From the NCBI GenBank assembly GCA_009773205.1, contig WPAE01000034.1:1-61915 (forward strand): a stretch of DNA of 61,915 nt, written 5' to 3'. A program made the translations under genes and the position numbers. Below the pieces are notes generated by a model. That model was not told where the DNA came from. It made no database searches and worked only from the letters and a program-made list of their open reading frames with translations. The DNA is from Ignavibacteria bacterium. GTDB lineage: Bacteria; Bacteroidota; Ignavibacteria; Ignavibacteriales; Melioribacteraceae. Positions 5,778 through 38,505 of this stretch are shown here, piece by piece (position 1 is the first letter of the stretch; each line of letters begins with the position of its first letter).

Positions 5778-5932
5778 AAAATTTTTATTCCGTAATCGGA
5801 CTTCGTGTCTGCGAAAAGATTTGTTGCACTAATTTGAAAACTATTCTACACATTCGTAAAACAATTGATTTTATAAAAACTTTTGTGAAAGGACTAATCA
5901 GAGTGGATTTAATTTTAGTAACTAAGGGAAAA

Positions 5933-8900
5933 ATGTTTGCGTTAGTATTAATTCTGCTTTTAACAACCTTTCTTTCGGCTCAGCAAAAACTAAAAACACA
6001 TGCTAATTCAGATTTGGTATTGTACACAAACAAAGAAGGCTTGCCTTCAACCAATTATGAAAAGATTATACAAACTAAAGATGGATACATTTGGGTTTCC
6101 GGTATTGAGGGCACTTACAGGTTTAATGGGTACGATTTTGAAGAAGTTGGTAAAGAAATAGATCTGCCTAAAATGCAAAATTTGCACTATGATTCTCTAA
6201 AGAATGTACTTTACTTTGCCTCGCCAAGTAAGTTTATAACTTTCGATGGGAAAGTATTTAAGACATATACTGAGAAAGATGGTTACAAATTAAATGGCTT
6301 GCCAGGAAGAGTTATAAGTTTTGTAAATGCTGATAGCAAAGGAAGAGTCTGGATTGGCTCCGAAACACCATACATTGATAAAAAATATAACGGCGGGTTA
6401 ACGCAGTTTTATAATGGAAAATTTTCTGTTTATGATTCAACAAATTTTCCTTTAGACAATGCAGAAAATTTTATAGAAACTCCGAATGGCGATTTAATAT
6501 TTTCCTCTTCCGGAAGGAATACTCAAACAGGTGAAGATTCTTACGTCGCTCTATTTAAAAACAATGTGTTTCGGAGAATTGATGAATCTGTTGGAATTAC
6601 ACTTCAAAGAGCAGTGTTACCACGCAAAAGTCTCTCCGGTTCAATTGATCAAAATGGAAACACATGGATAGCATTTCGAAGCAATTCGCTCAGCTTAAGT
6701 TTTAGTAAAAATACTATAGGCGTTATGATGTATGATGGAAATAAGTTCCATCAGTTTACAGATTTTGTTAAAGAATTAGATAATTATCAGTTTCCACTAC
6801 TTGTTTTTTATAGTAAGCAGTTTAAAAAATTATTTCTTACAACCGGTTCGGTTATGCCTGCTATTTTATCTCTTAATAGCAAGTACATTTTTGAGTATAA
6901 AAATGGGAAATGGATTCCATCTGAGATTATGGAAAGCATTAGAAAAGTTATAGATACAGGTTCAGGAAAAGCTATTAGTAATTTTCAATTTGCAAATGCC
7001 GGATTTACTAAAGCAGATAAGTATTTCCCGGAATTATTAATACTTCAAACAACTGCTGAAAATCAAACTCAAAGCTCAAATATTCCAAATCAAATGTTCG
7101 CATATAAAAACGGGAGTTGGATAAAGTATGATGCTTTTCCCGCCATTCCTTATGAAGCAGTGAATGATGGGTCTCTAATTTACAGCAAGAAAGGCTTTGG
7201 TTTTTATTATCCAAATTTTTCAAAGATTATAACTGAGAAGGATGGGCTGATTAGAAAAAAAGTTGGTCTTAATCACTTAACCACAGATAGAAAAGGTAAT
7301 GTATGGATTACTTATTCTTTTGCATCGTTACCAGTTTACGCGCAAACATTCAGCACCGGGTTAAATATTTGGGATGGGAAAAAAATAAGAAGTTATAAAG
7401 AAAAAGATGGGTTAAAAAGTGATATAATTTTTAAAGTGTTTCCGGATAAAAAAATGAATGTCTGGATACCAACTTCCAAAGGGATAACGTTATCAAAAGC
7501 AGACTTCGATAAAAATGGTGAGTCAAGTTTCAAGTTTAAAAATATTGATACAGATAAACGTAAAAATTATAATTCTTCCATGGTATTAGAAACCAGCAAA
7601 GGAGATATTTATGCATGGCAGGATTATGTTAGACCTCAATCGGAAGAATTAATAGAGGCAGATTTTTTCTTGGGAAAATATAATGGCGAAAAGTTTGTTG
7701 AAATAAACTCTCCATTCAGTAAAGAATTTAATAAGAAAAAATATCAACTCCTTGATCTGCGCGAAGATAACGAAGGAAGGCTATGGTTAATTGGGCATTT
7801 TTCTAACAACGTAAACGAAATTAGCTCGACCAATACAGTAATAATGATTTATGATGGAAATAAATGGAGTTATCCGCCTTCAAATTGGAACGTACCAAAT
7901 GAAGAGCTTCACTACGTGGGTAACTTAAAAAATGGAATGTACTTCCTTTCTTCCAGCGGTTTTTTTGTTTTTAACGGAAAAAAGTTTGTAAATCTTAGTG
8001 ATAGTGTAAACGCGAATGCAGATTTCAGAATACTAAAAAGAGCAAGCGTTGCCGGTACAAAAACCGATATTCAAGGAAGTGACAGACTGTATATAAGATT
8101 AAGAGGGCAAGGGCTAGTAATTTTTGACGGTACAAATCTAAAGTTTTATACTCGGAAAGATGGACTACCATCCTCAACAATTGCAAACCCTATTATTGAT
8201 TACAAGGGAAATGTTTTCTTTGGGTTTCCTTATGGTACATTGCAAGTTAAAGGAGATAAATTTCAAGCTTACTACGATGATGAAAGCTTGGTCTCCGGCG
8301 GCTCTCAAGGTGCAACACTTGATGGGAGTGGTAATTTAGTAGCATTTTACAGCGGGGTAGGGCTTTTTATCAATAAAGTTGAAGTGAATAGTTATCCCTT
8401 AAAAATAACTTCCGTTTCAGTAGATTCCTTATCATTCCATTATAATTATCCACAAACTTTCACTCATAATCAAAACTCATTTATGTTCAGCTATGCTGCG
8501 TTCAATTTTAGAGACCCACGCCAAACTACTTATGAGTACATATTAGAAGGATTCGATAAAGATTGGTCTCGCTCCTCAACTTTGCCATTTGTAGAATATC
8601 AAAACCTTCCGCCTGGGAAATACCGCTTCAGAGTAAAAGGAATTACATCAAACGGTGTTAAAACGAATGAAGATAGCTACTCTTTCAGTATCAGTCCTCC
8701 TTGGTGGCTAACTTGGTGGGCTTACGGAGTATATTTCTTTGCTTTTGTTAGTTTGCTTGGCGGTATTAGAAAGTATGAATTAGAAAGAAGAAAAGAAGTA
8801 GAAAAGAAAAGACTGCTTCAAGCAGAACATGAAAGAAAAACTAAAGAACTTAATGATGCACGCCAGCTTCAATACTCTATGCTGCCAAAAGAACTGCCGA

Positions 8901-9553
8901 CATTGCCGCATCTTGATATTGCAGTTTACATGAAAACAGCAACAGAAGTCGGCGGCGATTATTATGATTTTCATGTTCACCCTGATGGAACATTAACCGT
9001 AATTCTTGGCGATGCAACCGGGCACGGTATGATGTCTGGAATGATGGTTTCAATTATGAAATCACTATTTATGTCTGATAGATCAAATAAAGAACTAAAA
9101 CCTTTTTTTGAAAATGCCAGCGCTGCAATAAAAGATATGCAGTTAGGCAGATTGATGATGGCTTTAACTTGTGTTCAAATTAAAGCTGATAGAATTATAA
9201 CAACAAATGCAGGTATGCCGCCGCTTTACTTATATCGAAGCAGCACCAAGTCGGTTGAAGAAGTAGTAATTAATAATATGCCGTTAGGTGCAATTAAGGG
9301 AATCTGCTACGAAGAAAAAGAATTAAAGATTGATAAGGGAGACACCCTGTTGTTGATGAGTGATGGTTTCGCGGAGTTGAAAAACAACTCTCAAGAATTG
9401 TACAGCTATAAAAGAGCAAAACAGAGTTTTGAGAATGTAGGAATGAAAGAGCCGGAAGAAATTGTAAATCACTTAAAAGAAGAGGGTCGCCGCTGGACAA
9501 ATGATGCAGATCCCGATGATGATGTAACTTTTGTAGTGATTAAAGTAAAGTGA
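5933..9553 (+). CDS. Secreted-propeller sensor fused to PP2C phosphatase (paralogue 1)
   Basis: Starting at ATG 5933 (AAGGGAA upstream; the TTG at 5834 would bury the signal sequence), the 1206-residue protein begins with a signal peptide ending FLSAQQ. It continues with two-component-regulator propeller repeats (GYIWVSG, GRVWIGS, GNVWITY, MNVWIPT), then a Y_Y_Y domain (YEYILEGFDKDWSR) and a membrane segment near residue 925. After a charged coiled coil comes a cytoplasmic PP2C domain with GGDYYDF, GDATGHGM, MSDGFAE and DDDVTFVVIKVK at the end. An extracytoplasmic signal would thus control a Ser phosphatase acting on a STAS protein, rather than a kinase as in classical hybrid two-component systems. 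The 3' end is copied seven times downstream. Confidence 0.88.
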   Translation: MFALVLILLLTTFLSAQQKLKTHANSDLVLYTNKEGLPSTNYEKIIQTKDGYIWVSGIEGTYRFNGYDFEEVGKEIDLPKMQNLHYDSLKNVLYFASPSKFITFDGKVFKTYTEKDGYKLNGLPGRVISFVNADSKGRVWIGSETPYIDKKYNGGLTQFYNGKFSVYDSTNFPLDNAENFIETPNGDLIFSSSGRNTQTGEDSYVALFKNNVFRRIDESVGITLQRAVLPRKSLSGSIDQNGNTWIAFRSNSLSLSFSKNTIGVMMYDGNKFHQFTDFVKELDNYQFPLLVFYSKQFKKLFLTTGSVMPAILSLNSKYIFEYKNGKWIPSEIMESIRKVIDTGSGKAISNFQFANAGFTKADKYFPELLILQTTAENQTQSSNIPNQMFAYKNGSWIKYDAFPAIPYEAVNDGSLIYSKKGFGFYYPNFSKIITEKDGLIRKKVGLNHLTTDRKGNVWITYSFASLPVYAQTFSTGLNIWDGKKIRSYKEKDGLKSDIIFKVFPDKKMNVWIPTSKGITLSKADFDKNGESSFKFKNIDTDKRKNYNSSMVLETSKGDIYAWQDYVRPQSEELIEADFFLGKYNGEKFVEINSPFSKEFNKKKYQLLDLREDNEGRLWLIGHFSNNVNEISSTNTVIMIYDGNKWSYPPSNWNVPNEELHYVGNLKNGMYFLSSSGFFVFNGKKFVNLSDSVNANADFRILKRASVAGTKTDIQGSDRLYIRLRGQGLVIFDGTNLKFYTRKDGLPSSTIANPIIDYKGNVFFGFPYGTLQVKGDKFQAYYDDESLVSGGSQGATLDGSGNLVAFYSGVGLFINKVEVNSYPLKITSVSVDSLSFHYNYPQTFTHNQNSFMFSYAAFNFRDPRQTTYEYILEGFDKDWSRSSTLPFVEYQNLPPGKYRFRVKGITSNGVKTNEDSYSFSISPPWWLTWWAYGVYFFAFVSLLGGIRKYELERRKEVEKKRLLQAEHERKTKELNDARQLQYSMLPKELPTLPHLDIAVYMKTATEVGGDYYDFHVHPDGTLTVILGDATGHGMMSGMMVSIMKSLFMSDRSNKELKPFFENASAAIKDMQLGRLMMALTCVQIKADRIITTNAGMPPLYLYRSSTKSVEEVVINNMPLGAIKGICYEEKELKIDKGDTLLLMSDGFAELKNNSQELYSYKRAKQSFENVGMKEPEEIVNHLKEEGRRWTNDADPDDDVTFVVIKVK

Positions 9554-9554
9554 A

Positions 9555-9946
9555 GCCTGTCCGCCATAGGCGGAATGATGTAACTTTTGTGGCGATTAAA
9601 GTAAAGTGATGCCTGTCCGCCATAAGCGGAATGATGTAACTTTTGTAGTGATTAAAGTAAAGTGTGGCCTGTCCGCCATAGGCGGAATGATGTAACATTT
9701 GTAGTGATTAAAGTAAAGTGATGCCTGTCCGCCATAGGCGGAATGATGTAACATTTGTAGTGATTAAAGTAAAGTGATGCCTGTCCGCCATAAGCGGAAT
9801 GATGTAACATTTGTAGTGATTAAAGTAAAGTGATGCCTGTCCGCAATAGGCGGAATGATGTAACTTTTGTAGTGATTAAAGTAAAGTGAAGCCTGTCCGC
9901 CATAGGCGGAATGATGTAACTTTTGTAGTTGTGAAAGTAAAATAAA
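9555..9946 (+). repeat. Tandem array, 7 x 56 bp, of palindrome plus phosphatase gene 3' end
   Basis: Unit starts are at 9555, 9611, 9667, 9723, 9779, 9835 and 9891, an exact 56-base period. Each unit is a roughly 20-base palindrome (GCCTGTCCGCCATAGGCGGA) followed by about 36 bases nearly identical to the end of the upstream coding sequence (encoding NDVTFVVIKVK-stop). Substitutions among units are few, and the last unit is the most diverged. This fills the 435-base gap between the two propeller phosphatase genes; the remaining 42 bases before the next start show no clear promoter. Confidence 0.95.
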
Positions 9947-9988
9947 TGGAATTCCTTATTGTGAATTGAGTACTTAAACAAAAGTATT

Positions 9989-12900
9989 ATGATCAATAAA
10001 ATTGAAAAATGTTTTATGCAAAAGAACTTTAGAGAATTACTAACAAAATATTGGCTGTTAATCATTTGTATGTTCTGTTATAGCCATGCTGAAGTATTTT
10101 CTCAAATAATTACTGCTGAAAAAATTTCGACCACAGAAGGATTGTCTTCACCAAACACTAGACAGGTGTTTCAGGATAGCTATGGTTTAATCTGGGTATG
10201 TACTCCTGATGGGTTGAATATGTATAACGGTTATAAAATGAAAATATATAAAAACGACCCTGATGACTCTTCAAGCATACTTAGCAATAATATTTGGCGG
10301 CTTGTTGAAGACAAAGAGCGAAATCTTTGGATCGCTACCGAAGATGGCGTTTCAAAATATTTACGTAAAGAAAACAAATTCATTAATTATAAAACTTCTT
10401 CTATTGTTAAGCATGCTATGGTTCAATCGCGTATTAATTATATATACGTTGATTCTAAAGATAATGTTTGGGCTACCTTAACCGAAACAAAAATCTGGAA
10501 GTTTAATCGTGGGATGAATAAGTGGGAAATAATGAAGTTTGATTCTGAGGATAATGCTCTTGTAAATGCTGCTGCAAAAGTAACTTACCCTATTACCGAA
10601 GATAAAAATGGAGTTGTATGGGTTGGCTCGTTAAATCATCCTCTTTCATTTTACGATGTAAAAGAGAATGTTTTTAAGAAGGCTGAGATAAAGAATAGTT
10701 TAACTGCTCCTATCTTTTCTGCATTGGGGAATGAGACAACAAATCTCTACTTTGATCGTAAAAATATTTTGTGGATAACAACAAGGAGAGGCATTTACAA
10801 GTATAATCCACTAAGCAGAGTTATCAAAACTATTGAGGAATACTCAACAGGTCAGCTTACCTTTTCGGCATATTATAACTCTATAACAGAAGATGAAAAA
10901 GGGAATCTATGGATTGCAAATAATTTTCGAGGGCTGCTAAAATTTGATGGAATATCAAACAAATACACAAGAGTTAAGTTGAAAGTTGAACAAAGTTTTC
11001 CAGATGTTAAAAAAAATCTTGTTGTTACAAATGTCTATGAAGATAATTCTGGGATGATATGGATATCAACTTTAACTCAAGGTATTTTGAAGTATAATCC
11101 CGATGTTCAACCGTTTAATTTATATCTGCACGATGAGCAAAACAAAGAAACGATAAGCAGCAGTTCTGTTTTAAGTATTCTTGAATCTCATAAGTATTCT
11201 GGCAAAATCTATGTCGGCACTGCTTTTGGCGGATTGAATGTATTTAATTCCACATCAAAAACGTTTTCTCAAATTCCATATAAAGTAATTAATGACATAA
11301 ATAAAGGTTCTGTAAGCTCCCTTTTTGAAGAATCAGATGGATCATTATGGGTTGGAACTTTTGCCGATGGACTTTTGAAAATGAATTCCTCTTATAATGT
11401 AACAGAACGGTACTTGAAGGATCCTAATAATAATGCAAGTCTATCGGGGGATTTGATTAAGGTTATTAAAAAAGACCGATTCGGGAATTTATGGGTTGGA
11501 ACAACCTCTGGACTTAACTTAATTGATGGAAAAAGCAAAAAGGTAACAAGAATTAGCGATGGCACTTCTTCTGTTTATCCGAGTGCGTTAATATCAATAT
11601 TGAGCAAGAAGAACATAAACAACAATGTTGTTTCAGAAATAAAAAATGTTGGTAACAGACAGAAACTTTCAAAAAAATTTTCAATTACAACTCCTGGCGA
11701 ATATCTTGTTGTATCAGTTGGTGAAGGCGCTCTTCAAGATTCAATAATGGTTGATTATGGGTGGATTGAAAATAGCACTTCAAAAATAATTTGGACTTCT
11801 TCTGGTCTTCAGAATTCATATCATATTGGCGGGCATATTAAAAATAGAATTATAGTAGATATTATAAATCTTACTCCCGGAGAGTATTCTTTGAAATATG
11901 TCTCAGATCAGAGTCACTCTTACAATAATTGGAATATGGAACCTCCGATTGAAAAAGAACTCTGGGGTATTAAACTAATGAAGATTGATGATAAGAAAAA
12001 ACTTAGTGCAATTAATGAATTAGTAAAAGAAGCTTCAGAAACAAGACTTGTACAAGGTAAAAATATTAATTCAATACATTTCAGCAGCAATGATATTATG
12101 TGGATTGGAAGTGAAGAGAGCGGCTTAGATAAAGTTAATCTAAGAACAAAAGAGTCAAAAAACTATACCTATAAATTCAACGACCCAAATTCTCTTAATA
12201 ATAAATCTGTTAAATATATTTATGAAGATGCTAATGGCGTTCTATGGATTGCTACAAATGGAGGAATAAATAAATTCAACCCCATTACTGAGAAGTTTGA
12301 ATTTTTTACTGAAACTGACGGACTTCCCTCAAATTATATTTCGGCCATATTGCCAGGCAATAAAGGTGAACTCTGGCTTTCAACGCAAGCTGGAATTTCA
12401 AGAATGTCTGTTAATAAATCCAACGAAAAAGCGAACTTTGTTAATTATGATTTAGGAGATGGATTGGGAGGATTAAATTTTCTTTCTACTATTGCATTGA
12501 AATCGCACGAAGGAAAATTTTACTTTGGTGGAGAACATGGACTGAATGAATTTTCACCATTTGTTTTGAATAAGGTGGTACCTGCTCTTGTTTTTACCGA
12601 TTTGAAAATATCCAATAAATCAATAGCCGTAATGGATAAAGAATTCCTGCTAAATGCTTCAATTATAGACTTAAAGGAAATAACTCTTCCCTATACTCAA
12701 AACGATATCAGTTTCGAATTCTCTGCATTGCACTTTGCCAAACCTTCGAAAAACCAATACGCACACAAATTAATTGGTTACGATGATGAGTGGATTTATG
12801 ATAATAACAGATTCGCTACATATACAAATTTAGATCCTGGCGAATATGTTTTTGTTTTCAAGGGTTCAAATAAAGATGGAGTCTGGAATGAAAACGGAAA

Positions 12901-13870
12901 ATCAATCAAGATTACAATTACACCACCTTGGTGGTTAACATATTGGGCTTACTTTGGTTACAGTTTAATATTTATCGGCTCTGTATTTATTGTGGATAGA
13001 GTTCAAAGAAAAAGACTTCTATCCAAAGAAAAAGAAAAACAAAAACGTCTTGATATTGAACATAAAATTGAGGCAGCAGAGCTAAAAGCAAAAGCTATTG
13101 ATGCAGAAAATAAACTCTTGCAAGTTGAATATGAAAGCAAAAAAAAGGAACTTGAAGAAGCGCGCCAGCTTCAATTATCTATGCTTCCTAAAGAAGTTCC
13201 TAACTTGCCGCATCTTGAGATTGCGGTTTATATGAAAACTGCAACGGAAGTTGGCGGCGATTATTATGATTTTAATGTCGGTTCTGATGGAACTCTTACG
13301 GTTGTAGTAGGAGATGCAACCGGTCATGGAATGAAGGCAGGTATTATTGTTACAGCCACGAAAAGTTTATTCAGCTCACATTCGGAGAATCCAGAAATTC
13401 TTTCAACCTTTGGTGCAATTTCACGCTGCATTAGACAAATGAATATGAAAAGACTTTCAATGTGTTTAAGCATGCTTAAAATCAAAGAATATTCAATACA
13501 AATTTCTTCTGCTGGAATGCCTCCAGTTTTATTGTTTAGAAATAGTACGAGGAAAGTTGAAGAAATATTTATTAAAGGAATGCCGCTTGGTTCTTTTCAT
13601 AAATATCCTTATGAACTACAGAAGATTGATATTAAAGCTGGCGATACACTGCTGATGATGAGTGATGGATATCCAGAAATGTTTAATAAAGATGAATTAA
13701 TGTTAGGGTATGATAAAACCATCGAAATTTTTGAAAAGATTGCTCATCTGGCACCGAAAGAAATTATAAATAGCCTCAATATAAAAGGTGCAGAATGGCT
13801 TAATGGGTTTGCTCAGAGTGATGATATTACATTTGTTGTAATTAAAGCTAAACAAGATGCTGTTGATTAA
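9989..13870 (+). CDS. Secreted-propeller sensor fused to PP2C phosphatase (paralogue 2, extra inserted domain)
   Basis: The 1293-residue protein has an N-terminal hydrophobic signal (WLLIICMFCYSH...VFSQ) and two-component-regulator propeller repeats (LIWVCTPDG, NLWIATEDG, SLWVGTF, NLWVGTTSG). A foreign-looking segment lies at about residues 555-665, after which the propeller resumes. A Y_Y_Y domain (KLIGYDDEWIYD), a membrane segment near residue 985, a long coiled coil and a PP2C domain follow (GGDYYDF, GDATGHGMKAG, MSDGYPE, SDDITFVVIK). It is a close paralogue of the preceding protein in the phosphatase part, where long stretches such as AVYMKTATEVGGDYYDF are identical. The inserted segment looks like a beta-sandwich (GEYLVVSVGEG, DYGWIEN, LTPGEYSLKY). 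Ligands are unknown. Confidence 0.87.
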   Translation: MINKIEKCFMQKNFRELLTKYWLLIICMFCYSHAEVFSQIITAEKISTTEGLSSPNTRQVFQDSYGLIWVCTPDGLNMYNGYKMKIYKNDPDDSSSILSNNIWRLVEDKERNLWIATEDGVSKYLRKENKFINYKTSSIVKHAMVQSRINYIYVDSKDNVWATLTETKIWKFNRGMNKWEIMKFDSEDNALVNAAAKVTYPITEDKNGVVWVGSLNHPLSFYDVKENVFKKAEIKNSLTAPIFSALGNETTNLYFDRKNILWITTRRGIYKYNPLSRVIKTIEEYSTGQLTFSAYYNSITEDEKGNLWIANNFRGLLKFDGISNKYTRVKLKVEQSFPDVKKNLVVTNVYEDNSGMIWISTLTQGILKYNPDVQPFNLYLHDEQNKETISSSSVLSILESHKYSGKIYVGTAFGGLNVFNSTSKTFSQIPYKVINDINKGSVSSLFEESDGSLWVGTFADGLLKMNSSYNVTERYLKDPNNNASLSGDLIKVIKKDRFGNLWVGTTSGLNLIDGKSKKVTRISDGTSSVYPSALISILSKKNINNNVVSEIKNVGNRQKLSKKFSITTPGEYLVVSVGEGALQDSIMVDYGWIENSTSKIIWTSSGLQNSYHIGGHIKNRIIVDIINLTPGEYSLKYVSDQSHSYNNWNMEPPIEKELWGIKLMKIDDKKKLSAINELVKEASETRLVQGKNINSIHFSSNDIMWIGSEESGLDKVNLRTKESKNYTYKFNDPNSLNNKSVKYIYEDANGVLWIATNGGINKFNPITEKFEFFTETDGLPSNYISAILPGNKGELWLSTQAGISRMSVNKSNEKANFVNYDLGDGLGGLNFLSTIALKSHEGKFYFGGEHGLNEFSPFVLNKVVPALVFTDLKISNKSIAVMDKEFLLNASIIDLKEITLPYTQNDISFEFSALHFAKPSKNQYAHKLIGYDDEWIYDNNRFATYTNLDPGEYVFVFKGSNKDGVWNENGKSIKITITPPWWLTYWAYFGYSLIFIGSVFIVDRVQRKRLLSKEKEKQKRLDIEHKIEAAELKAKAIDAENKLLQVEYESKKKELEEARQLQLSMLPKEVPNLPHLEIAVYMKTATEVGGDYYDFNVGSDGTLTVVVGDATGHGMKAGIIVTATKSLFSSHSENPEILSTFGAISRCIRQMNMKRLSMCLSMLKIKEYSIQISSAGMPPVLLFRNSTRKVEEIFIKGMPLGSFHKYPYELQKIDIKAGDTLLMMSDGYPEMFNKDELMLGYDKTIEIFEKIAHLAPKEIINSLNIKGAEWLNGFAQSDDITFVVIKAKQDAVD

Positions 13871-15948: not shown

Positions 15949-18900
15949 ATGATGGCAGTAAGAATAAAAAATAATCCTTTAGAATCAGAAAATGAATTAT
16001 TGAAAAAACAGTTAGCACAGAGAGAGGCTGAACTTACAATTGTAAACAGTGTTGGCGAAGCTATGTCAAAACAACTGGATGTTTTGACTGTTACAAAAAT
16101 AGTAGGTGATAAAGTTCGCGAAATCTTTCATACAGAGGTTACAGAAATTTTATTATTAGATCATGAAACCAGAATAATTGAAATTCCCTTTTCTTATTAC
16201 AATGGATACAGAAACTACGAGCCCTTTCGTTTAGGTGAAGGATTAACCTCAAAGGTAATCAGTTCAAGAAAACCATTGTTGTTCCATACTTTAGCTCAGC
16301 AGATAGAAAATGGTGCGCTAATTCAGACTGATGAGGATAAAACCGAATCATACATTGGCGTTCCAATATTATTCGAAGATAAAGTGCTTGGCGTAGTTAG
16401 CATTCAGAGTTACACTCCAAACGTGTTTGATGAAAATAATGTTCGACTTCTTTTAACATTATCTGCAAGCATGGGTGTTGCCCTTCAGAATGCAAAGCTT
16501 TTTGAGAAATCAGACCGGCTTCTAAAAGAAACCGAACAGCATTCTGCCGAACTTGCAATTATAAACAGTGTAGGCGAGGCAATGTCTAAACAGCTGGATA
16601 TTTCTACCGTAACAAAAATTGTCGGTGATAAGGTAAAAGAAATATTTCATTCTGAAGTTACTGAAATTTTATTGTTGGATGAACCCGCTAATATGATTCA
16701 AGTCCCTTATTCTTTTTACAATGGTTATCAGAATGTAGAACCATTTGAACTTGGTGCAGGATTGACTACTAAGGTTATTAATTCTCGTAAACCACTCATG
16801 TTCTCAAATTTAGTTGAACAAAACCAAGCGGGGGCAATTACAGATATAAATGTTGGTGAGGCAGATGAAACTGAATCTTATTTGGGAGTTCCCATTTTAT
16901 TTAACGATAAAATTCTCGGAGTAGTAAGCATTCAGAGTTATCAAAAAGATGCTTATTGCGAAAATGATATGCGCCTTCTCTCAACGCTTTCTACAAACAT
17001 GGGAGTTACTTTACAAAACGCGAAACTGTTTGATGAAACAAAAAGGTTGCTTAATGAAACAGAACAGCGTACAGCAGAACTTGCAGTAATTAATAGTGTT
17101 CAAGAAGGATTAGCTAAAGAGCTTGATATACAAGGCATTTATGAATTGGTTGGAGAAAAGATTAGAGAAATTTTTAATGCGCAGGTAATAGACATAGTAA
17201 CATATGATAAACAAAATGATCTTATAGAAGATAAGTACGCATTCGAAAAAGGCGATAGAACATTACTGGCACCAAGAGTGCCACATGGATTTAGAAAACA
17301 CTTAATTGAGACGAAACAGATCCTTCTTATCAATGAAGATGTAGAGAGAATGGGTGCTGAATTTAATAACCCCACTCAGATTGGTGATACTCCCAAATCA
17401 GCGGTTTTTGTTCCGATGCTTGTTGGGGATGATGTTAAAGGAATAATTAGTTTACAGAATCTGGATATTGAAAATGCTTTCACTCAATCCGATGTAAGGT
17501 TACTTACAACATTGAGCAATAGCATGAGTGTTGCACTAGAGAATGCAAGACTTTTTGATGAAACAAATAAACTATTAGATAAGACAAAGCAACAGGCTAT
17601 AGAATTAGGAATAATAAACAGCGTTGGGGAAGGGTTAGCTAAACAGTTAGATTTCCAATCCATAATTGATCTTGTTGGAGATCAGATTCGCGAGGTTTTC
17701 AAAGCTCAAGTTGTATCAATCTCAACGTATGATTCTACCGATGAGACAATTCATCATTGTTATGTGATTGAAAAGAACAAGCGGTATTACCACGATAAAT
17801 CAATCGAAATTGATCCAGATAGAAAAGAAATAATCCAAACACAAGCGCCGTTAATATTTGGCTCGAGCGAAGAGATTATTAAACACAGTGGAGATCAAGT
17901 ACTTGATGGAGAAATGCCCGAATCATTTTTAGGTGTTCCTATAATTCATAACGAAAGAACAACCGGCGTAATTACAATTCAAGATTTAGACCAGCAGAAT
18001 CTCTATACAGAAAATGATGGAGTTCTTCTAATGACGCTTGCATCTAACATGGGTGTCGCTCTCGAAAATGCAAGACTATTTGAAGAAACCAAAAGACTCC
18101 TTAACGAAACACAGCAGCGTAATGTAGAACTTTCTATTCTGAACACAATCCAAGAAGGATTAGTAATGGAAATGGATTTCAATTCTATTATTACTCTTGT
18201 TGGAGATAAATTTAGAGAGGCTCTTAACTTTCAAGACCTTGGTATTAGAATTTATGACAAGGAAAAGAATATTCTTCACTTCCCTTACGAATATGAACAT
18301 GGGCAAAGATTGTTTATAGATTCTGGCGAACCAACGCCATTTTCAAAGTATGTACTCAATACTGGCAAGCTGCTTATGATGAAAAGAAATACAGAAGAAG
18401 AAGCAGAAAAGATTGGAATAACCGGACAAACAACAATACCCGGAACAGATAAAAGTAAATCTCTAGTTATGGTTCCAATTATGCTTGGCAGCGAAGCAAG
18501 AGGTTTAATTCTCATAGAAAATTATGAAAAGGAAGATGCGTTCAGTGAATCGGATGTACGCTTATTAACTACCGTTGCTAATAGTATGAGCGTAGCTTTA
18601 GAAAATGCAAGATTGTTCAACGAAACTTTGCGGCTTCTTGATGAGAGTAAAAAACGTGCTGCTGAAATGAGTACTGTAAATAGTATTAGTCATGCAATAG
18701 TAGGTCATCTTGAAATTAACAGATTGATAAACTTAGTAGGAGACAAAGTTAAGTCTCTCTTTAATGCAAACATTGTTTATCTGGCACTTTTAGATAAAGA
18801 AAAGAATATGATTGAGTTTCCATACGGTTATGGCGAAGAATTTCCTCCGTTAAAATTTGGTGATGGATTAACATCTAAAATAATTTTAACAAAAGAACCA

Positions 18901-38430: not shown

Positions 38431-38505
38431 CGGGGTGTAGCGCAGCCCGGTTAGCGCGCTTCGTTCGGGACGAAGAGGTCGGGAGTTCGAATCTCTCCAC
38501 CCCGA
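38431..38505 (+). tRNA. tRNA-Pro (anticodon CGG)
   Basis: The 75-base sequence folds as a cloverleaf: acceptor CGGGGTG/CACCCCG, D arm GCGC/GCGC, anticodon arm CTTCG-TTCGGGA-CGAAG giving anticodon CGG, T arm GGGAG-TTCGAAT-CTCTC, discriminator A. CCA is not encoded. It reads the proline codon CCG and lies on the plus strand between two minus-strand genes. Confidence 0.95.

Follow-up and report, generated by a model that had tools for sequence, protein, structure and literature searches.

A tandem array joining a phosphatase gene end to a 19-nt REP-like hairpin element in an Ignavibacteria bacterium

Introduction

How does the end of a protein-coding gene, stop codon included, come to be repeated in tandem together with a short palindrome? 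The question is raised by a locus of an Ignavibacteria bacterium (assembly GCA_009773205.1, contig WPAE01000034.1), of which a stretch of 61,915 nt, here called the window, was analysed. The initial annotation of this DNA reported seven units in which a palindrome is joined to the 3' end of the preceding phosphatase gene. It proposed that the array could give the transcript a multi-hairpin 3' region, create sites for recombination with other phosphatase paralogues, or record how the palindrome spreads. PMC3733652 describes clusters of REP elements that were amplified together with flanking DNA. In this study, we investigated the layout of the array, the distribution of its hairpin in related genomes, and the origin of the repeated gene end.

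Results

The array lies between two related genes on the forward strand. Gene B (5834-9553; ORF list, Pfam) encodes a Reg_prop propeller, a Y_Y_Y domain and a SpoIIE-type PP2C phosphatase domain, with Pfam matches of 9.4e-09, 3.8e-15 and 1.2e-29, respectively. Gene C (9989-13870; ORF list, Pfam, cluster comparison) is a second Reg_prop / Y_Y_Y / SpoIIE paralogue and is the next gene after the array. At gathering scores, Rfam yielded only a tRNA at 38431-38505 in the window.

Tandem Repeats Finder (TRF) at default score detected a single array in the 61.9-kb window, at 9519-9941, with a period of 56, 7.6 copies, 94% matches, 0% indels and a score of 741. Comparison of the units resolved 9519-9945 into eight 35-nt tails and seven intervening hairpins, in a strict 56-nt period with no indels. 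Each of the seven 56-nt units (9519-9910, forward strand) consists of a tail (ATGATGTAACTTTTGTAGTGATTAAAGTAAAGTGA), two bases and a 19-nt element. The tails start at 9519, 9575, 9631, 9687, 9743, 9799, 9855 and 9911. The hairpin, GCCTGTCCGCC-ATA-GGCGGA, is found at each of the seven tail-tail junctions, starting at 9555, 9611, 9667, 9723, 9779, 9835 and 9891. The first copy of the 19-nt element, CCTGTCCGCC-ATA-GGCGGA, was located by sequence match at 9556-9574 on the forward strand, and its extent was taken from filled and empty sites elsewhere; copies 2-7 start at 9612, 9668, 9724, 9780, 9836 and 9892. Thus the amplification of the gene's own tail with a short palindrome, at a 56-nt period and with the stop codon included, was borne out by both TRF and the unit layout. 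The count of seven units also held for the 56-nt unit, but the array begins at 9519, within the coding sequence of gene B, and ends in an eighth tail that carries no hairpin. The palindrome is likewise shorter than first described: a hairpin is present, but only TCCGCC-ATA-GGCGGA is paired, with a 6-bp stem and a 3-nt loop, and the adjacent GCCTG is an unpaired one-sided tag.

The units are similar but not uniform. Units 1 and 7 are identical, any other two of the seven are separated by 1-5 differences, and units 4-6 have one change in common. Four of the seven hairpins are exact and three carry one stem substitution. The period of 56 nt is not divisible by 3; each tail except tail 3 is closed by a stop when read in its own frame. 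Within 9401-10060 the longest exact repeat is 72 nt, so that k-mers of at least 73 in a de Bruijn graph resolve every unit. These results confirm that the tandem array is real and regular.

Tail copy 1 (9519-9553, forward strand) is the final 35 nt of gene B with its TGA, and encodes DDVTFVVIKVK followed by the stop; the tail of a same-genus orthologue (L099) is identical at 31/35 positions. The closest orthologues of gene B fit copy 1 better than copy 8 (31 v 29 in G002, 31 v 28 in G070). Judged by such alignment, copy 1 is shown to be the orthologous end of gene B, and the better fit of the orthologues to copy 1 holds equally whether copy 8 is a paralogue end or a decayed duplicate.

Simple tandem copying of tail plus hairpin predicts unique sequence after the last hairpin; however, another tail was found there, copy 8 (9911-9945, forward strand). 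It differs from copy 1 at 5/35 positions: three third-codon positions, one first-codon position, and the stop, which is changed from TGA to TAA and so is kept. The first-codon change, combined with one of the third-position changes, replaces Ile with Val, and the tail reads VVVKVK plus stop. Among random tails with five substitutions, 0.2% were as conservative as copy 8, in a test made after the differences had been seen. The DNA of copy 8 matched SpoIIE gene ends in other genomes, in G064 and G009 at positions that agree with SpoIIE matches and in G025 by its DDVTF end. It is identical to the tails of L127 and L309 at 31/35 positions, compared with 30/35 for copy 1, and L127 is a remote gene with about 29% identity over the domain. 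When 32 other distinct tails were compared, 19 were nearer to copy 8, 8 were nearer to copy 1 and 5 were tied, mostly by one base and with remote genes included. The likeness of a 35-nt tail is therefore a weak guide to the origin of copy 8. In G070, the locus (L211) is a run of SpoIIE genes with a relative of gene B, and a C-terminal SpoIIE fragment was found at 16563-16787. With modest confidence, we regard copy 8 as a possible remnant of a lost paralogue between genes B and C. The proposed link to phosphatase paralogues may hold to this extent, that tail 8 may be the end of another SpoIIE gene, but the palindrome has no special tie to phosphatase genes, as described below.

We examined where else the hairpin occurs. 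The 19-nt element, with the consensus C(C/T)TGTCCGCC-NNN-GGCGGA, is dispersed at low copy in the order to which the window belongs and is enriched there. With up to 1 mismatch, the 20-mer was found at 8 places in its own genome; seven belong to the array, and the eighth, at C149:25156, lies in a tRNA-Asp fragment. This last place is also the only site outside the array of the tagged form GCCTGTCCGCC-NNN-GGCGGA, and the CTTG form of the element has one further site, at C459:68476. With the same tolerance, the 20-mer was present in 19 of 97 genomes, its own included, and a reversed control pattern in 0/97. In a phylum sample of 395 genomes the exact 19-mer was found in 19: 12/40 in the order (own genome included), 5/58 in the rest of the class and 2/297 outside the class, the last being chance level, as the control pattern itself matched in 4 genomes there.

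In relatives, the element lies in CRISPR-like repeats, tRNA fragments and minisatellites. Specificity for SpoIIE gene ends was rejected. A search behind other SpoIIE genes, suggested by the initial annotation, found the exact core in only 2/33 loci (31 distinct regions, as two pairs overlap), one being the window's own; in the other, L112, an untagged core palindrome lies about 160 nt past the SpoIIE match and there is no array. The same annotation named a 56-nt unit unrelated to phosphatase ends as the observation that would count against it. As worded, no such unit was found, the 56-nt unit having no second occurrence in its own genome, but its palindrome half lies in unrelated contexts in relatives.

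A separate, longer repeat is also dispersed in the window's own genome. It is roughly 110-135 nt long, contains several GC hairpins and ends in CCCTCGTCCGCCTCTGGCGGATTAAA; in L005-L033 it extends over about 140 nt and ends at the central hairpin, and 27 copies of the repeat were aligned. The GTCCGCCTCTGGCGGA sites with a TCT core, present at 39 exact places in this genome, are part of this longer dispersed repeat and were left out of the element context counts.

The loop of the hairpin sets the array apart. The sequence ATA was found in 7/7 array hairpins and in 0/104 other exact elements, whose loops are TTT, CGT, TCT, TGC and others; the ATA form was absent from the other 96 relatives. The seven hairpins thus most simply descend from one, and the array would contain the product of one insertion that was amplified afterwards.

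The size of the element was determined where filled and empty sites adjoin, in CRISPR-like repeats and in tRNA copies. Two stretches of G045 contain 6 filled and 20 empty 30-nt CRISPR-like repeats (GTCTCAATTCTAATATAGTCCGATTAGTAC), 3 filled and 6 empty in L210 and 3 filled and 14 empty in L170. The filled repeats are at 1629, 3169 and 3458 (forward strand) of L210 and at 1, 487 and 640 on the reverse complement of L170. All carry the hairpin at one constant internal position, one of them with an extra substitution, and three loops (GTA, CGT and GGA) are represented. The distance to the next repeat is longer by about 19 in filled repeats, and two filled repeats lie within a perfectly duplicated 115-nt block. 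Filled minus empty repeat is exactly 19 nt; the joined 28-nt flanks match with 0-1 mismatches, and there is a one-base A ambiguity at the insertion ends. In the window's own genome (G000), the hairpin at C149:25156 splits a partial tRNA-Asp copy within its D-arm, and this copy lies directly upstream of an intact tRNA-Asp. This case likewise gives a 19-nt element, and no target duplication was seen. No empty counterpart of the joined flanks of the array element was found at its own locus, where the closest match had 9-10 mismatches of 28.

Five genera have an intact tRNA preceded by degenerate 5' tRNA gene fragments, whose D-arm holds or adjoins the hairpin. These hairpins are at L015 1498-1516 (tRNA-Asp), L079 1501-1519 and 1614-1632 (Asp), L083 1502-1520 (Arg), L168 502-520 (Met) and L155 1501-1519 (Arg). 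In L083 the tRNA resemblance is on one side of the hairpin only, and the hairpin of L168 has one substitution.

Local repeats around the element were compared with control positions in 39 contexts. Mismatched elements and those whose flanks contain N or fall short of 25 nt were excluded from this set, 3/7 window copies being among those excluded. In 7/39 contexts, the window being one of the 7, a 14-nt flank recurred on the other side of the element, no more than 150 nt away and with 0-1 mismatches, versus 2.8% of 3,120 local control positions (p ~1e-4); at random positions the same recurrence was 1.9% of 2,144. A near-empty site, defined by up to 4 mismatches in 28, was observed in 5/39 contexts, the window not among them, versus 0.06% of local controls. 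The p-values for these contexts are indicative only, because the genomes are few and some of the repeats are neighbouring copies of the element. A TRF survey of the 177 loci, out of 213, in which the core palindrome is present with up to 1 substitution found further arrays whose unit includes the palindrome, in G089 (29-43 nt), G025 (27 nt), G399 (19 nt plus longer blocks) and G062 (15 nt). The window array holds 7 hairpins, and the others at most 3.

Two further pairs of sites were observed. In G076 (L070, reverse complement 905 and 1502), hairpins about 600 nt apart with partly similar flanks lie in putative coding sequence. Nearly the same flanks occur on both sides of the hairpin in L039 of the window's own genome (reverse complement 1502) and at 1501 of L137, from a different genus; the common flanks may be either an old vertical copy or a composite repeat.

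Three candidate explanations for the movement or targeting of the element were rejected. A Y1/RAYT transposase showed no linkage: TCCGCC-N3/4-GGCGGA was found in 0/30 Y1_Tnp loci, each of 1.7-3.3 kb and taken from 78 matches in 18 genomes, and G045, which bears the element in its CRISPR-like repeats, had no Y1 match. Phage carriage was judged rare or due to chance, with 63 stretches among 2.9 million viral contigs and one match in each. Targeting of a hairpin into another hairpin does not hold as a general rule, since a perfect inverted repeat of at least 6 flanking the element after its removal was found in 2/39 contexts versus 2.1% of 3,763 controls, and junction-spanning base pairs in the folded flanks had a mean of 6.1 versus 6.5 in controls. 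In G069, G036 and G085, a hairpin centred within another palindrome (CTTCTCTT / AAGAGAAG or CTCTCCTT / AAGGAGAG) was observed in L133, L149, L171, L176, L177, L076 and L092.

Discussion

A hairpin between two similar tails is the kind of sequence at which slippage or unequal exchange classically occurs. The account we favour, and hold to be somewhat better than an even bet, is that a 19-nt REP-like element was inserted after the stop of gene B, between two similar tails, and was then amplified. A single element would have been placed just after the stop, between the tail of gene B and the similar tail copy 8; precise insertion is shown by the filled and empty pairs elsewhere, and we infer it for the array locus. 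Copy 8 may be a paralogue's end, left behind when the rest of that gene disappeared from what is a run of SpoIIE genes, and this is the weakest and least secure step of the account. Judging from the units, slippage or unequal exchange at the two 35-nt direct repeats flanking the hairpin would then have produced seven units. Point changes that arose afterwards, together with more duplication inside the array, could explain the likeness of units 4-6.

Almost all units restore the C-terminus and the stop, so that gain or loss of units need not alter the protein, which is probably why the array is tolerated. No array follows the orthologue from the same genus (G002), whose downstream sequence is different, or the G070 orthologue; its absence from both suggests that the array is young. 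No orthologous locus representing the state before or after the event was found. The likely effect would be that the 3' region of the transcript carries a series of hairpins of variable length, and a selected role is not needed.

The strongest alternative is a plain minisatellite formed by slippage, in which the tail was duplicated first, the hairpin is incidental and copy 8 is the oldest and most diverged repeat. The array resembles minisatellites (VNTRs) in its head-to-tail 56-nt units (>10 nt) of variable likeness. Hairpin arrays with quite different unit lengths occur in several relatives, the identity of units 1 and 7 points to ordinary repeat turnover, and tail likeness fails to assign copy 8 firmly to one gene. 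However, the unit of the window array combines a gene end with a dispersed hairpin element, the hairpin is at 7/7 junctions, and the changes in copy 8 keep the stop and the amino-acid character to a degree seen in so few random tails, unlike those of a decaying spacer. We consider this alternative rather unlikely.

It is improbable, in our estimate, that the array is a selected 3' untranslated structure whose seven hairpins stabilise the transcript or regulate the next SpoIIE gene. The array RNA folds better than shuffled sequences (z -3.99, with 0/100 shuffles as good), and REPs are reported in PMC3733652 to lie predominantly downstream of coding regions. A repeated palindrome, however, folds strongly anyway, the array is absent behind the G002 and G070 orthologues and the other SpoIIE genes examined, and no terminator-like site was found in 9300-10200. 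The multi-hairpin 3' region envisaged initially is thus consistent with the fold score, but neither a terminator-like site nor anything else points to a function. An artefact of the fragmented, probably metagenome-derived assembly, with the genome in 476 contigs, is very hard to credit, because the units differ, the longest exact repeat is so short and the array lies in the interior of a 62-kb contig.

The element was compared with known repeats. According to PMC3733652, REP elements of the GTAG and CGTC super-families are short palindromes tagged on one side that lie after genes, some families inside other palindromes, and in these respects the element is alike. The window array also resembles REP-type clusters in that palindromes are reiterated in tandem with flanking DNA, but its flanking DNA includes a coding end and a stop. 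The tag of the element is CCTG or CTTG, and not an unpaired GTAG at the foot of the palindrome; GTAG REPs have a RAYT gene flanked by the repeat, whereas the element was linked to 0/30 Y1 loci (of 78 matches). CGTC REPs are described in the same text with a stem of 8-9 bp, a loop of 4-5 nt and a tail that is mostly CCA (PMC3733652), whereas the window copies have a 6-bp stem, a 3-nt loop and no CCA tail, in an element of 19 nt. The CGTC tag is often TGTC or CCTC; TGTC is present but overlaps the stem, and the larger dispersed repeat of the window's own genome reads CTCGTCCGCC. Because the GTAG tag and the CGTC stem and loop sizes do not fit and none of the 30 Y1 loci examined is linked, we file the element under neither super-family. 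How CGTC REPs spread without a dedicated transposase is stated as an open question in that text (PMC3733652).

Our search of titles and abstract openings, with subscription journals mostly outside its reach, returned no description of the 19-nt element in Ignavibacteria. Repeats of similar behaviour are the small dispersed repeats (SDR) of Nostoc, in another phylum. They were reportedly described by Elhai et al. in 2008 as structured, apparently mobile repeats of 21-27 nt that are non-coding and often lie within tandem or other repeats.

The array is best read as a scar of genome instability caused by a very small repeated element, and not as a working part of a gene. In line with the initial annotation, it is informative about the behaviour of the palindrome. 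We put forward as speculative, and more doubtful than not, the wider proposal that this 19-nt hairpin, which is below the 20-40 bp of REPs, is mobile DNA that inserts as a precise unit in Ignavibacteria. Such a unit would enter CRISPR-like repeats and tRNA copies with a target duplication of at most 1 base and, between short homologies, would drive tandem duplication, here of a self-regenerating gene end. Were it mobile, the element would be unusually small for mobile DNA. The array shows how coding sequence can be drawn into a tandem duplication centred on a hairpin while the gene stays unharmed.
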